Notes: a model not told the origin generated them from the letters alone. Positions 14,545 through 38,497 are shown, numbered from the stretch's first letter. The stretch: DNA of 64,000 nt from Sulfuriflexus sp. (GCA_023134145.1 JAGLUW010000010.1:186001-250000), one strand, 5' to 3'. A program made the numbers and translations.

Positions 14545-15213
14545 TTAGTAGTGTGATGGCAGCTTGTCATTAATAGTAATGATGCCGCTTTCCACTGTGA
14601 TGTAGCCGCCAGTGGTTAAATCTTTAAAGATACGGCTAACCATTTCACGTGAAGCACCGACCATGCTGGCAATATCTTTTTGAGTTAGTTTTTCACGAAT
14701 CACTTTGCTGCCATCTTCTTCTGGTTTAGCAAATTGCAAAAGGGTGCGAGCAACACGGCCATAAACATCCATGAGAGCTAAACTTTCGATGTTCTTATTC
14801 GCCTCACGAAGGCGTTTGGATAAACCTTTAAGTAGGTTGCGCACCAAGCTTGGGTTGTTATCTAGAACGTGATTGAAATCGTTTTGGTTGATGACACAGA
14901 ATTGGCATTGCTCCATTGTTACAACACGGGCGGAGCGGGGCTCGTCATCAATAAGTGCTAATTCACCAAAATATTCATTCGGTTCGAGAATGGAAATAGT
15001 GACCTCTTTACCATCTTCATCACTCAGCACCACTTTTACCTTGCCGGAGATAATGAGATAGAGTGAATCGGTATCATCGCCTTCATTAATAATGACATTA
15101 TTCTTTTGATAACTGCGTTTAGTGGTAATAGCGACGATTTCATCGAGTTCAGGTTCGGTAAGCCCCGAAAAGAGAGGAATGTTTTGCAATTGAGTTGTAT
15201 TGATTGTCGCCAC
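14545..15213 (-). CDS. Crp/Fnr-family regulator with CRP-type recognition helix
   Basis: A 222-residue regulator. The N-terminal cyclic-nucleotide-binding domain has the phosphate-binding cassette FGELALIDDEPRSARV, with the Glu, Arg and Ser that bind cAMP in classical members, so it probably binds a cyclic nucleotide. The C-terminal winged helix has KDIASMVGASREMVSRIFKDL; the SREMVSR pattern matches the CRP recognition helix (RExxxR) and not the FNR helix (ExxSR). It also lacks the N-terminal cysteines of FNR, so it is not the sensor for the FNR-like box at 31973. Gene order (next to rpsF) says little about its targets. A cyclic-nucleotide phosphodiesterase-like gene lies at 24330. Confidence 0.85.
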   Translation of the reverse strand: MATINTTQLQNIPLFSGLTEPELDEIVAITTKRSYQKNNVIINEGDDTDSLYLIISGKVKVVLSDEDGKEVTISILEPNEYFGELALIDDEPRSARVVTMEQCQFCVINQNDFNHVLDNNPSLVRNLLKGLSKRLREANKNIESLALMDVYGRVARTLLQFAKPEEDGSKVIREKLTQKDIASMVGASREMVSRIFKDLTTGGYITVESGIITINDKLPSHY

Positions 15214-31972: not shown

Positions 31973-32020
31973 TTGATTCAGATCAATGTGACTTATATAT
32001 GGCTTTGATACTTGTACGAG
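31973..32020 (+). promoter_or_regulatory. FNR-type box and class II promoter of the sulfur operon
   Basis: TTGAT-TCAG-ATCAA at 31973-31986 is a perfect match to the FNR/ANR consensus. GATACT at 32007-32012 matches the -10 box at four of six positions; a start near 32019-32021 would put the centre of the box at about -40 to -41.5, the class II activation position. It lies about 80 nt upstream of the OsmC gene. The operon is therefore expected to be turned on at low oxygen. Confidence 0.7.
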
Positions 32021-32063
32021 AGTACATTAATTGTAGTAATTAAGACTTAACAGGTGGCCAAAT

Positions 32064-32468
32064 ATGCCGAGTATTACAACGGAGTATAAAGGTGATGCGC
32101 TTTTTGAGACAGTTCTTGGCTCACATACGCTAAAGGTTGATGTGCCGGAAAGCATGGGGGGTAAGAATCGTGGGCCAATGCCACCACAGCTTTTTATTGC
32201 CTCGCTCGGTTCCTGTGTCGGTGTATTAGTCAGGGACTTCTGTACACATCACGATCTTGATCCGGAAGGCCTTAAGATTGATGTTTCATATGAATTTGCC
32301 AAACATCCCAACAGGATGACAGGTGTTGTTGTTGATGTGAGCCTGCCCAATGCGTATTGTGACGATAACTGCACGCGTAAAGCACTTGAGCATGTGGCAG
32401 AACATTGCCCTGTACATGAGACCATTGCTACACTCAAAGAGGTACAGTTTAATATCGTGACAGCTTAA
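32064..32468 (+). CDS. OsmC-family thiol protein
   Basis: A 134-residue cytoplasmic OsmC/Ohr-fold protein. The two reactive cysteines of the family are visible: C51 in IASLGSCVGV and the Cys in EHCPVHETI at about 115. OsmC-type proteins reduce peroxides or handle activated sulfur; the clade here (with PPQLFIASLGSC) is of unclear substrate. It is the first gene behind the FNR-type promoter and lies 16 nt upstream of a YeeE/YedE sulfur transporter gene, which points to persulfide or thiosulfate chemistry rather than peroxide defence (inference). Confidence 0.85.
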   Translation: MPSITTEYKGDALFETVLGSHTLKVDVPESMGGKNRGPMPPQLFIASLGSCVGVLVRDFCTHHDLDPEGLKIDVSYEFAKHPNRMTGVVVDVSLPNAYCDDNCTRKALEHVAEHCPVHETIATLKEVQFNIVTA

Positions 32469-32484
32469 GGTGAGGTGTTAGTCA

Positions 32485-33669
32485 ATGAATTCTAAAGCTA
32501 CGACGGATCAACCTGTTACCTTAATGATTATAGGCGGTATTATTGCCTTTAGTCTTTTCCTGCAATACGAGTTTGCAATCAAGCAAGCTTTACTGTTTCT
32601 TATTGGTATTGGGCTGGGAGTAACACTGTTACATGCAGCCTTTGGTTTCACCGGTTCATGGCGTGTGTTTGTACGTAAACGTCGTGGCGCAGGTGTGCGC
32701 GCCCAAATATTATTACTTGCATTAACATCAATATTATTTTTTCCTCTTTTAGGTAAGGCCTTCCCTGAATTAGCGGCCAGTGCGGCGTTAGCGCCTGTTG
32801 GTGTTTCTGTGCTTGTTGGTGCCTTTGTATTTGGTTTGGGAATGCAACTTGGTGGCGGTTGTGGCTCCGGAACTTTGTTCACCGTGGGAGGAGGGCATGT
32901 GCGGATGTTGATCGTACTGGCATTCTTTATTGTTGGTGCAACGATAGGCACGGTACATTTACCTGCGTGGTTGACCTTGCCAAGTCTTGGCAAGATATCG
33001 ATCATTAATAGTCTTGGTTGGTTGCCGGCACTGGTAATGCAGTTGTTAGTGCTAACCGCACTTTATTTTGTGGTTCGTGCTATTGAGCGAAAACGTCATG
33101 GCGATGTTGTTCAGCTTGGTGGGGCCAGTGATAAATCATTTACTGAGCGACTTGTGTTTGGGCCCTGGACATTAGTTTGGGCTGTTGTTGCACTCGCATT
33201 GTTTAATCTGGCGACATTACTACTTGCTGGTCATCCCTGGACAATTACATTTGGCTTTGGTCTCTGGGGAACCAAGTTATGGGCTGCGCTAGGTGGTGAT
33301 GTTAGCCAATGGGCTTTTTGGCAGAGTGGCTATGCTGCAAAGGCTCTGAACGGTAGTGTCTTGGCAGATACAACCACATTGATGGATTTTGGAATTATTC
33401 TCGGTGCGATGCTTGCCGCAGCATTGGCCGGAAAGTTTGCACCAGATAGCAAGATCAATATGGCCGGTTTCATGACGGCTATTATTGGTGGTCTGCTAAT
33501 GGGTTATGGTGCTCGGCTTGCCTTTGGTTGTAACATTGGTGGTTTGTTGGCAGGAATTAGTTCGGGTAGTTTGCATGGTTGGCTCTGGTTGATTGCAGGA
33601 TTTACTGGTACGCTTGTCGGTGTGCGACTACGTATTATCTTTAAAATAGATAAGCCTATTGAGGCCTGA
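32485..33669 (+). CDS. YeeE/YedE-family sulfur-compound transporter
   Basis: A 394-residue inner-membrane protein with about ten hydrophobic segments. The two halves each carry the conserved Cys motif of the thiosulfate transporter family: GMQLGGGCGSGTLFTVGG at about 130 and RLAFGCNIGGLLAGISSGS at about 350. In YeeE (TsuA) such cysteines pass thiosulfate through the membrane. It is a full-length two-half protein, not the split YeeE/YedE pair. Second gene of the sulfur operon; the next gene starts 2 nt after its stop. The exact substrate (thiosulfate, sulfide or another sulfur species) is unknown. Confidence 0.9.
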   Translation: MNSKATTDQPVTLMIIGGIIAFSLFLQYEFAIKQALLFLIGIGLGVTLLHAAFGFTGSWRVFVRKRRGAGVRAQILLLALTSILFFPLLGKAFPELAASAALAPVGVSVLVGAFVFGLGMQLGGGCGSGTLFTVGGGHVRMLIVLAFFIVGATIGTVHLPAWLTLPSLGKISIINSLGWLPALVMQLLVLTALYFVVRAIERKRHGDVVQLGGASDKSFTERLVFGPWTLVWAVVALALFNLATLLLAGHPWTITFGFGLWGTKLWAALGGDVSQWAFWQSGYAAKALNGSVLADTTTLMDFGIILGAMLAAALAGKFAPDSKINMAGFMTAIIGGLLMGYGARLAFGCNIGGLLAGISSGSLHGWLWLIAGFTGTLVGVRLRIIFKIDKPIEA

Positions 33670-33671
33670 TT

Positions 33672-33854
33672 ATGGAACATAAATACAATCGCTGGATCAT
33701 GGGAACAGCAGTGGGCATTGTTGCAATTGCTGCCATGATCGATCATACCCGACATACCCTGCCCACTGCGCAGCCGAATGATATCGTTATTATCGACGAT
33801 GAAACAGACGCTTCACCATGTTCGTTGGATGTCTCTCCCTGCAGTCTAGATTGA
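33672..33854 (+). CDS. 60-residue membrane peptide with tandem SPCSLD motif
   Basis: A small protein I do not recognise. A GAGG ribosome site at 33661-33664, seven nt before the ATG and overlapping the end of the transporter gene, supports translation. One hydrophobic segment (WIMGTAVGIVAIAAMI, about 8-23) is followed by an acidic stretch (IVIIDDETDA) and a C-terminus that repeats SPCSLD twice, joined by Val. The two copies use different synonymous codons at five of six positions (TCA CCA TGT TCG TTG GAT against TCT CCC TGC AGT CTA GAT), so the protein motif seems to be conserved while the DNA diverged. It may be a thiol carrier for the adjacent transporter; this is inference. Confidence 0.7.
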   Translation: MEHKYNRWIMGTAVGIVAIAAMIDHTRHTLPTAQPNDIVIIDDETDASPCSLDVSPCSLD

Positions 33855-33857
33855 GAC

Positions 33858-34454
33858 ATGCCACCTGAACAACACGCGATAAATATACTTACAGCACTGA
33901 GTTTTTTTGCCAATAAAAAGACGAATCTTGTTCTGGATGTCTTAGCCGGACAGACGCCACATGAAAACGAGAAATTCCCCAAAGGCGAGTTGAATTTTGC
34001 AGACTCGGGTTGGCGTGGTTTTTACCATTGTCATTCTGCGGAGGATAAAGATCCGGAAGAACATGGGCATTTTCATTTATTTGTTTGTTGTGGCGAAGAA
34101 CAATGGACTCACGTAGCGGCATTATCAATAGATAACCAAGGTCAGCCACGCAGCTGGTTTACTGTAAATCAATGGGTCACGGGTGCTAACTGGCTATCTG
34201 CCAATGATACTTTGATATTATTGGATAACATTCAGGTTCCAGTTGAAAGCACAATCACTGAGAAGTTCCTGTTATCAATGCTTGGCCTATACCATGATGA
34301 TCTAAGTGAATTATTGCTTGAGCGTGATAGACGGTTGACCCAGATCAATGCGGGTGCCAATATGGATGATACGCTTCAGGATAGAGATGTGTACGTTTTA
34401 AGTTTTCAGCCCATTGCTCTTCAAGAACGCTTGTTTCAGTCTGTACGTAAGTAA
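33858..34454 (+). CDS. Unrecognised cytoplasmic protein with HGHFH motif
   Basis: A 198-residue protein without signal peptide or membrane segment. I cannot name its function; it may belong to a domain-of-unknown-function family. Visible marks are GWRGFYHCHSAEDKDPEEHGHFHLFVCCG (split: WRGFYHCHSA and EEHGHFHLFVCCG), a cluster of His and Cys that could bind metal, then WFTVNQWVTGANWL. It sits 3 nt after the SPCSLD peptide gene and 30 nt before the rhodanese gene in the FNR-controlled sulfur operon, so a role in sulfur or redox handling is possible. Confidence 0.75.
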   Translation: MPPEQHAINILTALSFFANKKTNLVLDVLAGQTPHENEKFPKGELNFADSGWRGFYHCHSAEDKDPEEHGHFHLFVCCGEEQWTHVAALSIDNQGQPRSWFTVNQWVTGANWLSANDTLILLDNIQVPVESTITEKFLLSMLGLYHDDLSELLLERDRRLTQINAGANMDDTLQDRDVYVLSFQPIALQERLFQSVRK

Positions 34455-34484
34455 AATACATATCATTAATACAGGAGGTGCACC

Positions 34485-35459
34485 ATGAATCTTCGTCACT
34501 TGGTTATATTCTTAGGTCTATTATTATTTAACTTGTCTTTGCAGGCAGCAACCCTACCCGGGCCCGTTGTTGATTCGGCATGGTTGGCAAAAAACCTTGA
34601 TAAGGTTGTTATCCTCGATGCACGTAAAGATATCAAAAGTTTTACAGCTAAACCGGCATACAAAAAAAATAAAAAAACCGGAAAACTGAAACTTGCCCGC
34701 GTTGGTGGTCATATAAAAGGTGCGCAACTGGTTAATTACAAGAAAGTGCGTGCCAAGAGGGAAATTGATGGCAAGACAGTAACGCGTATGTTGCCAGTAA
34801 AAGCTGACTTTGAAAAACTCATGCAGGCAGCAGGGCTGAGTAAAAATAGCGCTGTTGTTATTGTCAGCAAGGGGCAGTCTGGTGGAGATATAACCATCGC
34901 GACACGCCTGTATTGGCAACTAAAGTACTATGGTCACACCGACATGGCTATTCTTGATGGTGGTATGGCACAGTGGCTCAAAGATGCTCATAAGGTGAAT
35001 ACAAAACCCGCAAAGGCAAGCAAAGGTAACTGGGTTGCGACCGCGGAAAACAAATCTATCCTCGCTACCAGCGATGATGTTGCCAAGGCCGTAAAAGATA
35101 AATCAGTCCAGCTCGTTGATACACGCGTCTTGAGTCAATACCTGGGTACTTATAAAAAGTCCTATGTTTATGCAAAGGGGCATGTTCCTACCGCTAAAGT
35201 TTTTCCGGTAGAGCTGTTGACATACCCAAGTTCACCCGCCAAGTTTACACCTAGTGATGATCTTGCTGCCTTGGCTCGTGAATTTGGTATTGATACGAAA
35301 AAACCTGCAATCACTTATTGCAACAGTGGCCACCTTGCATCAGGCGCCTGGTTTGTGATGAGCGAGGTACTAGGTAATAAACAGGCCAAACTTTATGATG
35401 GTTCCATGCACCAGTGGACACTGGAAAAAAGGCCAACTACAGCAATGAAGATGGAGTAG
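34485..35459 (+). CDS. Secreted two-domain rhodanese-type sulfurtransferase
   Basis: A 324-residue periplasmic protein: signal peptide LVIFLGLLLFNLSLQA, then two rhodanese domains. The second has the active-site Cys C279 in ITYCNSGHLASGAW. In the first the catalytic Cys is lost (IVSKGQSGGD), the normal pattern for tandem thiosulfate sulfurtransferases, where only one domain is active. An AGGAGGTG ribosome site before the ATG is the strongest in this operon, so high expression is likely. As the last gene after the YeeE/YedE transporter and the SPCSLD peptide, it may move sulfane sulfur in the periplasm. It ends 10 nt from the convergent cmoB gene. Confidence 0.9.
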   Translation: MNLRHLVIFLGLLLFNLSLQAATLPGPVVDSAWLAKNLDKVVILDARKDIKSFTAKPAYKKNKKTGKLKLARVGGHIKGAQLVNYKKVRAKREIDGKTVTRMLPVKADFEKLMQAAGLSKNSAVVIVSKGQSGGDITIATRLYWQLKYYGHTDMAILDGGMAQWLKDAHKVNTKPAKASKGNWVATAENKSILATSDDVAKAVKDKSVQLVDTRVLSQYLGTYKKSYVYAKGHVPTAKVFPVELLTYPSSPAKFTPSDDLAALAREFGIDTKKPAITYCNSGHLASGAWFVMSEVLGNKQAKLYDGSMHQWTLEKRPTTAMKME

Positions 35460-37759: not shown

Positions 37760-38497
37760 ATGAATATAGTGAAATCAAGTTCAAGAATATTAGTTATATT
37801 GTGCGCGTTAATAGCTCTGCCATTAAATGCAGCCGACGATGATATTTCTAAATTAAAACAACGTTTGTCGAGTATGTTTCCCTCAGACACGGCTTACACT
37901 ATTTCAAAAACACCTGTACCGGGTTTGTTTGAAGTTGATTTTGGTGATTCCTTTGTGTACATCACCGCAGATGGTCAATACGCTGTAAAAGGTGACATTA
38001 TTAATATGGTCACTAATGCAAACCTTACTAATCTTAAACGCGCTGAAGGGCGTTTAAAGACAATGGAAGTGATTACTGAAAAAGACACACTTGTTTATCC
38101 CGCGAAGGATAAAGTAACGACCATGACAGTCTTTACCGATATCGACTGTTCATATTGCCGAAAACTTCATAGTGATATGAAAGGCTATAATGAACAAGGC
38201 ATTGAAGTTCGTTATGTATTTTATCCTCGTGCAGGCCTAGGTTCAAATTCTCATCAAAAAGCGACATCGGTTTGGTGTGCAGACGATCAACGTAAGGCGC
38301 TTGATTTTGTTAAGAGTGGCAGAAGAATTGATAAACGGGATTGCGATACACCTATTGTAAAACATGTTGAAGTGGCGAATAAATTAGGCGTGAATTCTAC
38401 TCCGACATTAATGTTTGAGGATGGCACAATGATGCCGGGTTACATTCCACCAGCACGTTTGGCAGCGATTCTAAAACAGCGCAAGGTAATTAAGTAA
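37760..38497 (+). CDS. dsbC: Thiol:disulfide isomerase DsbC
   Basis: A periplasmic disulfide isomerase that corrects wrong disulfides and is kept reduced by DsbD. The 245 residues have a signal peptide (ILVILCALIALPLNA), the N-terminal dimerisation domain (DTAYTISKTPVPGLFEVDFGD), a linker, and the thioredoxin domain with TDIDCSYCRKLH (CSYC active site) and the cis-Pro region GVNSTPTLMFEDG. It follows yajQ by 2 nt. Its stop abuts the stop of the convergent addA gene. Confidence 0.95.
   Translation: MNIVKSSSRILVILCALIALPLNAADDDISKLKQRLSSMFPSDTAYTISKTPVPGLFEVDFGDSFVYITADGQYAVKGDIINMVTNANLTNLKRAEGRLKTMEVITEKDTLVYPAKDKVTTMTVFTDIDCSYCRKLHSDMKGYNEQGIEVRYVFYPRAGLGSNSHQKATSVWCADDQRKALDFVKSGRRIDKRDCDTPIVKHVEVANKLGVNSTPTLMFEDGTMMPGYIPPARLAAILKQRKVIK

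Follow-up and report, generated by a model that had tools for sequence, protein, structure and literature searches.

Described systems that resemble the locus reported here include thiosulfate uptake by TsuA–TsuB (YeeE–YeeD), the SoxT1A/SoxT1B proteins of Hyphomicrobium, the YTD cluster of sulfur disproportionators and cable bacteria, and the ribosomally synthesized and post-translationally modified peptides (RiPPs) associated with MNIO (PF05114). In Dsr-type oxidisers, the route by which sulfane sulfur produced or kept in the periplasm gets into the cytoplasm has, to our knowledge, yet to be settled. In TsuA, Cys91 and Cys293 are reported to be indispensable (PMC11582611), and Cys22 lies at the YeeD interface (PMC11073785). 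Here, we analysed a 64,000-nt stretch of Sulfuriflexus sp. DNA (GCA_023134145.1 JAGLUW010000010.1:186001-250000; the window), in which genes for a YeeE/YedE transporter, a membrane-anchored Pro-Cys-repeat peptide, a DUF6969 protein and a periplasmic rhodanese form a four-gene block that may be an undescribed way to move sulfur into the cell.

The block is recurrent: Gamma- and Alphaproteobacteria yielded 12 further loci (L015 in G038, L016 in G002 of the same genus, L017 in G048, L018 in G093, L019 in G070, where the contig ends inside yeeE, L020 in G046, L026, L027, L081 in G102, L082 in G180, L085 in G260 and L125 in G594); the last of these, from the same phylum and another class, we take to be alphaproteobacterial. 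A DUF6969 protein search of 95 relatives, with the neighbourhoods read, showed the same gene order. All sampled genomes were species representatives; the peptide search and the search for the NPC-repeat proteins described below appear to draw on one set of 369 genomes. Strong peptide matches (E < 1e-19) occurred in 12 of these 369 genomes, every one of them DUF6969-positive (Fisher P = 5e-15, ignoring phylogeny). Moreover, an all-against-all comparison of flanking open reading frames (ORFs) returned NPC-repeat proteins, the rhodanese, the peptide and YeeE as the widespread same-strand neighbours of DUF6969. Because DUF6969 had no match in two further members of the genus (G001, and G003, which is 80% complete), we regard the block as accessory. 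Its hosts tend to carry dsrA, which scored over the curated cut-off in 11 of the 13 genomes with an operon-type peptide and, in the relatives set, in 6/7 such genomes compared with 26/88 others (P = 0.005, phylogeny ignored).

The initial annotation had described a five-gene sulfur-handling set of undescribed composition, headed by OsmC, and had named a failure of its genes to co-occur elsewhere as grounds for refutation. The four-gene recurrence, which passes that check, and the presence of dsrA support the undescribed sulfur-handling set, but not the membership of OsmC, a homologue of which adjoins the block in none of the relatives' loci; we therefore rejected OsmC as a core member and treat it as specific to this genome, where the block may additionally have acquired osmC and a promoter of the FNR type. 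The same observations bear on the possibility that OsmC, rhodanese and transporter are an ordinary FNR-controlled redox-stress group assembled by chance. A perfect FNR box and OsmC would fit that explanation in this genome, but with OsmC confined to it and the four other genes kept together in many families, we find it scarcely credible, and chance assembly of the four-gene block is contradicted by the co-occurrence.

In the window, the five closely spaced genes, with intergenic gaps of 16, 2, 3 and 30 nt, are flanked by xerD-like and cmoB-like genes (we used simple rules rather than a gene predictor to call ORFs). The features are:

31973..31986, + strand: FNR-type box TTGATTCAGATCAA, a perfect match
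32007..32012, + strand: putative −10-like hexamer GATACT, read from the sequence, 4/6 matches
32064..32468, + strand: osmC, OsmC-family protein (PF02566, 1.9e-14)
32485..33669, + strand: yeeE, YeeE/YedE (Sulf_transp) transporter (PF04143, 6.6e-66)
33672..33854, + strand: 60-aa membrane-anchored Pro-Cys-repeat peptide, no Pfam or NCBIfam match
33813..33851, + strand: repeat segment of the peptide, SPCSLDVSPCSLD, with Pro before every Cys in the aligned family
33858..34454, + strand: DUF6969 protein, predicted cytoplasmic, candidate metalloprotein (PF22308, 2.8e-42)
34059..34076, + strand: EHGHFH motif (residues 68-73) of DUF6969, a candidate metal site with H57, H59, H85 and N104
34485..35459, + strand: periplasmic tandem rhodanese (Rhodanese, 3.6e-24, two stretches)

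A DsbC-like thiol-disulfide protein with a CSYC motif (37760-38497) was read by eye downstream of the operon, at a distance of about 2.3 kb.

The peptide of the window combines a transmembrane helix, an IDHTRH motif, an acidic linker and two SPCSLD repeats. Its homologues (60-121 aa; mean column identity 42% across nine) share a short positive N-terminus, a single hydrophobic helix, IDHTRH, the acidic linker and 2-9 repeats of the form [SAN]-P-C-[GS]-[LM], each with a single Cys. The cysteines are mostly 6-12 residues apart (19 once), so that they constitute isolated thiols, without CxxC pairs. The charge distribution suggests that the N-terminus lies inside and the repeats in the periplasm.

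The transporter scores 223 bits against a Sulf_transp cut-off of 27, and its Cys126 and Cys349 align with Cys91 and Cys293 of TsuA (structures 8j4c/8k1r/6leo). At the position of TsuA Cys22 it has Gly54, as do all full-length relatives, and the three-cysteine pattern of TsuA and SoxT is accordingly absent; NCBIfam models of the TsuA type score below their cut-offs (67 vs 400 and 39 vs 645 bits). The rhodanese has a signal-peptide-like N-terminus and one catalytic cysteine, Cys279, in the loop CNSGHLASG of the second domain, invariant in 16/16 homologues; the first domain is without one. The transporter weakly matches a selenium YedE/FdhT model and the rhodanese weakly matches ExtH, which might indicate handling of selenium or tellurium oxyanions, but these scores are far under the curated cut-offs (138 vs 350 and 94 vs 200 bits, respectively) and the association is with dsrA instead, making such an operon very improbable.

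Taken together, the dsrA association, the transporter cysteines and the rhodanese cysteine favour periplasmic sulfane sulfur being passed inward to Dsr. In the persulfide relay that we propose, at a probability of roughly 0.4, the peptide would be anchored in the inner membrane and each of its isolated periplasmic Pro-Cys thiols would hold sulfane sulfur, loaded by the periplasmic rhodanese. The tethered thiol array would then pass this sulfur to the two-cysteine YeeE-type transporter for delivery to cytoplasmic Dsr-type oxidation, while the cytoplasmic, probably metal-dependent DUF6969 protein would modify, protect or metallate the cysteine repeats before export. Such an array is chemically reasonable, since the Cys-rich metallothionein-3 binds sulfane sulfur (PMC12618007).

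The fourth protein, initially listed as an unrecognised HGHFH protein, does have a family, DUF6969 (145 bits against a gathering cut-off of 27), the function of which is not known; the open-access literature returned nothing relevant on DUF6969, PF22308 or the NPCAAK, SPCSLD and SPCGLD motifs. Nine residues (H57, H59, E68, G70, H71, H73, H85, N104 and V107) are invariant in 44/44 sequences, and H69 is conserved in 43 of them; the invariant polar set thus comprises seven residues, namely five His, Glu and Asn. An AlphaFold (AF2) model built from a nine-row alignment reached a predicted local distance difference test (pLDDT) score of 90.5 and a predicted template-modelling score of 0.89; a single-sequence run was poor (pLDDT 38), indicating that the alignment is needed for a good model. 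Strands 52-58, 68-79 and 82-92 of the model hold most of the conserved histidines, which alternate as would be expected if they faced one side of the protein. Comparison with the PDB gave no fold match, either by structure (best E 0.62) or by sequence profile. In the tree, the operon-type DUF6969 proteins (15 rows including the window, plus L028) form a clade apart from the rest, with support of 100/98.

Outside the operon, DUF6969 is a regular partner of exported cysteine-repeat proteins, a pairing that the initial annotation had missed. These neighbours carry NPCAAK, NPCAPG, NPCASK, CGAK, CAAKKP or GCC repeats. Same-strand ORFs within 1 kb and with at least four copies of one Cys-containing tripeptide were found at 26 of 43 DUF6969 loci and at 2 of 109 control genes (P = 9e-16). 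The controls were taken from 20 regions in these genomes, and one place accounts for both control matches. Many of the linked proteins are fused to a cytochrome c domain of the SoxA/TsdA type; such domains occur with NPC repeats in L087, L115, L117, L128 and L168, with repeats also behind the haem motif in the first three. Three loci (L089, L091 and L116), in which an NPC peptide and DUF6969 accompany the same rhodanese family as in the operon, form a bridge between the operon and the NPC-repeat settings; dsrA was found in 0/3 genomes with loci of this NPC-rhodanese type. DUF6969 also neighbours small exported peptides whose repeats, CAATCAATC or GCCGCCGCC, have lost the Pro before Cys (L022, 8480-8698; L023, 8921-9127). 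Loci L165, L167 and L168, whose genomes gave no DUF6969 match, have NPC-repeat proteins adjoining MtrC/c554-like multihaem cytochromes.

The diversity of these partners, in repeat type (NPCAAK, SPCSLD, CGAK, GCC) as well as in their cytochrome fusions, would suit generic client binding, with DUF6969 acting as a chaperone for thiols or metals, holding cysteine-repeat proteins in a reduced or export-competent state without covalent change, and the other operon genes importing thiosulfate or sulfane sulfur. Nevertheless, the invariant polar set looks less like a binding surface than like an active site or metal site, and we consider a chaperone role unlikely.

A RiPP-like metal buffer would follow a logic similar to that of MNIO systems such as bufferins and captophorins: a DUF6969 metalloenzyme would oxidise the cysteines of the PC repeats to metal-chelating groups, the product would bind periplasmic copper or a metal like it, and rhodanese and YeeE would supply or clear sulfur. 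An exported cysteine-repeat precursor is indeed paired here with a cytoplasmic protein bearing a conserved His set, and published MNIO precursors have Sec signals and cysteine repeats (PMC12452194, PMC12668002). In addition, one DUF6969 locus (L088, 4395-8731) encodes two NPCAAK-type peptides, DUF6969, an MNIO (PF05114, 1.7e-109) and then a DoxX-domain protein, and DUF6969 and MNIO may share or divide substrates there. However, L088 is the single exception seen: PF05114 matches none of the operon genes, and neither MNIO nor a DUF2063 partner recurs at DUF6969 loci. Moreover, Pro precedes every Cys of the peptide, whereas FonB, an MNIO, failed to tolerate repeats that contained Pro (PMC12668002), and the association with rhodanese, YeeE and dsrA points toward sulfur. 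On balance, the metal buffer appears doubtful, although it is the least improbable of the rival explanations. A separate locus, L169 (5686-7722), encodes a peptide with CKGKNGCKGKN repeats, then an MNIO (5e-112) and a further ORF, and resembles the Cys-Lys captophorin group.

The sequences show the gene content, its conservation and co-occurrence, the conserved catalytic Cys and the siting of DUF6969 next to exported cysteine-repeat proteins in several distinct settings; sulfur as the cargo is something that we infer, as are the import direction, the action of DUF6969 on the peptide and its metal dependence. Several observations weigh against the persulfide relay. The dsrA comparison is confounded by phylogeny, and two of the 13 genomes with an operon-type peptide, G180 (72% complete) and G070 (95%), have no dsrA match over the cut-off. 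The block is also not always intact: L086 (G360) has yeeE, the peptide and DUF6969 with no adjacent rhodanese, L083 (G196) keeps the peptide and DUF6969 only, and in L028 DUF6969 stands alone. The other DUF6969 subfamily is mostly without rhodanese and YeeE, so that sulfur need not be a general DUF6969 theme. Finally, some genomes with no DUF6969 match (G060, G064, G113, G258 and G307) still encode NPC-repeat proteins, which rules out DUF6969 as obligatory for all of them; the pairing is strong but not exclusive.

Regulation by FNR had been part of the initial annotation, and the perfect box and the five genes at small gaps were borne out by the sequence and the ORF coordinates. The box is the sole perfect one in the 64-kb window (base-shuffled windows average 0.15), and an FNR-like regulator gene over the NCBIfam cut-off is encoded in the same genome. 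The putative GATACT element would place the box centre at about −40, a class II-like spacing that fits the approximately −41.5 of such promoters; a promoter scan lists nothing at this site, as expected in the absence of a −35 element. Among relatives, though, box-like sites (1-2 mismatches) within 150 nt upstream of yeeE were found in only 3/11 (L026, L081 and L082; P ~0.04), so low-oxygen control is not a defining feature of the block. For the operon in this genome, control by FNR at low oxygen is plausible, but it is only partly conserved. Across the window (1-64000), FNR-like boxes with at most one mismatch number 15, compared with 5.5 expected from shuffles, and a Crp/FNR-family regulator gene lies at 14563-15174 on the − strand.

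The block offers a concrete four-gene candidate for sulfur entry in Dsr-type oxidisers. Independently of this, the pairing with cysteine-repeat proteins supplies a candidate substrate for DUF6969 and may reflect a new system for peptide modification or thiol carriage in Alpha- and Gammaproteobacteria. A broader proposal, which we regard as unlikely, is that DUF6969 defines a previously undescribed class of post-translational modification enzymes with no relation to MNIO, acting on the Pro-Cys repeats found in exported peptides and cytochromes across Proteobacteria; in Dsr-type oxidisers, its product would be a membrane-tethered persulfide conveyor feeding YeeE, which would explain how sulfur gets from the periplasm to Dsr in the cytoplasm.

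Compared with the known systems, the block shares with the MNIO RiPPs, which comprise bufferins, captophorins and oxazolins, the exported cysteine-repeat precursor encoded beside a cytoplasmic putative metalloenzyme, but DUF6969 falls outside PF05114, matches no PDB fold and is not accompanied by a recurrent DUF2063 gene, and the repeats are Pro-Cys rather than EGKCG. The YTD cluster (PMC13047784) likewise joins yeeE to sulfur-transfer proteins and conserved hypotheticals; these are TusA-like, DsrE-like, Chp1 and Chp2, with no Cys-repeat peptide, DUF6969 or rhodanese listed. SoxT1A/SoxT1B (PMC11582611) provide a YeeE-like importer for dissimilatory sulfur oxidation, with a small single-transmembrane protein encoded near soxT1A; however, that protein is without cysteine, SoxT has three conserved cysteines, DUF6969 is absent, and the pathway served is sHdr, not Dsr. 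TsuA–TsuB, finally, has a YeeE-family transporter to whose Cys91 and Cys293 the block transporter has equivalents, whereas the block has Gly in place of Cys22 and, with no TusA-like gene, encodes the peptide, DUF6969 and the rhodanese.

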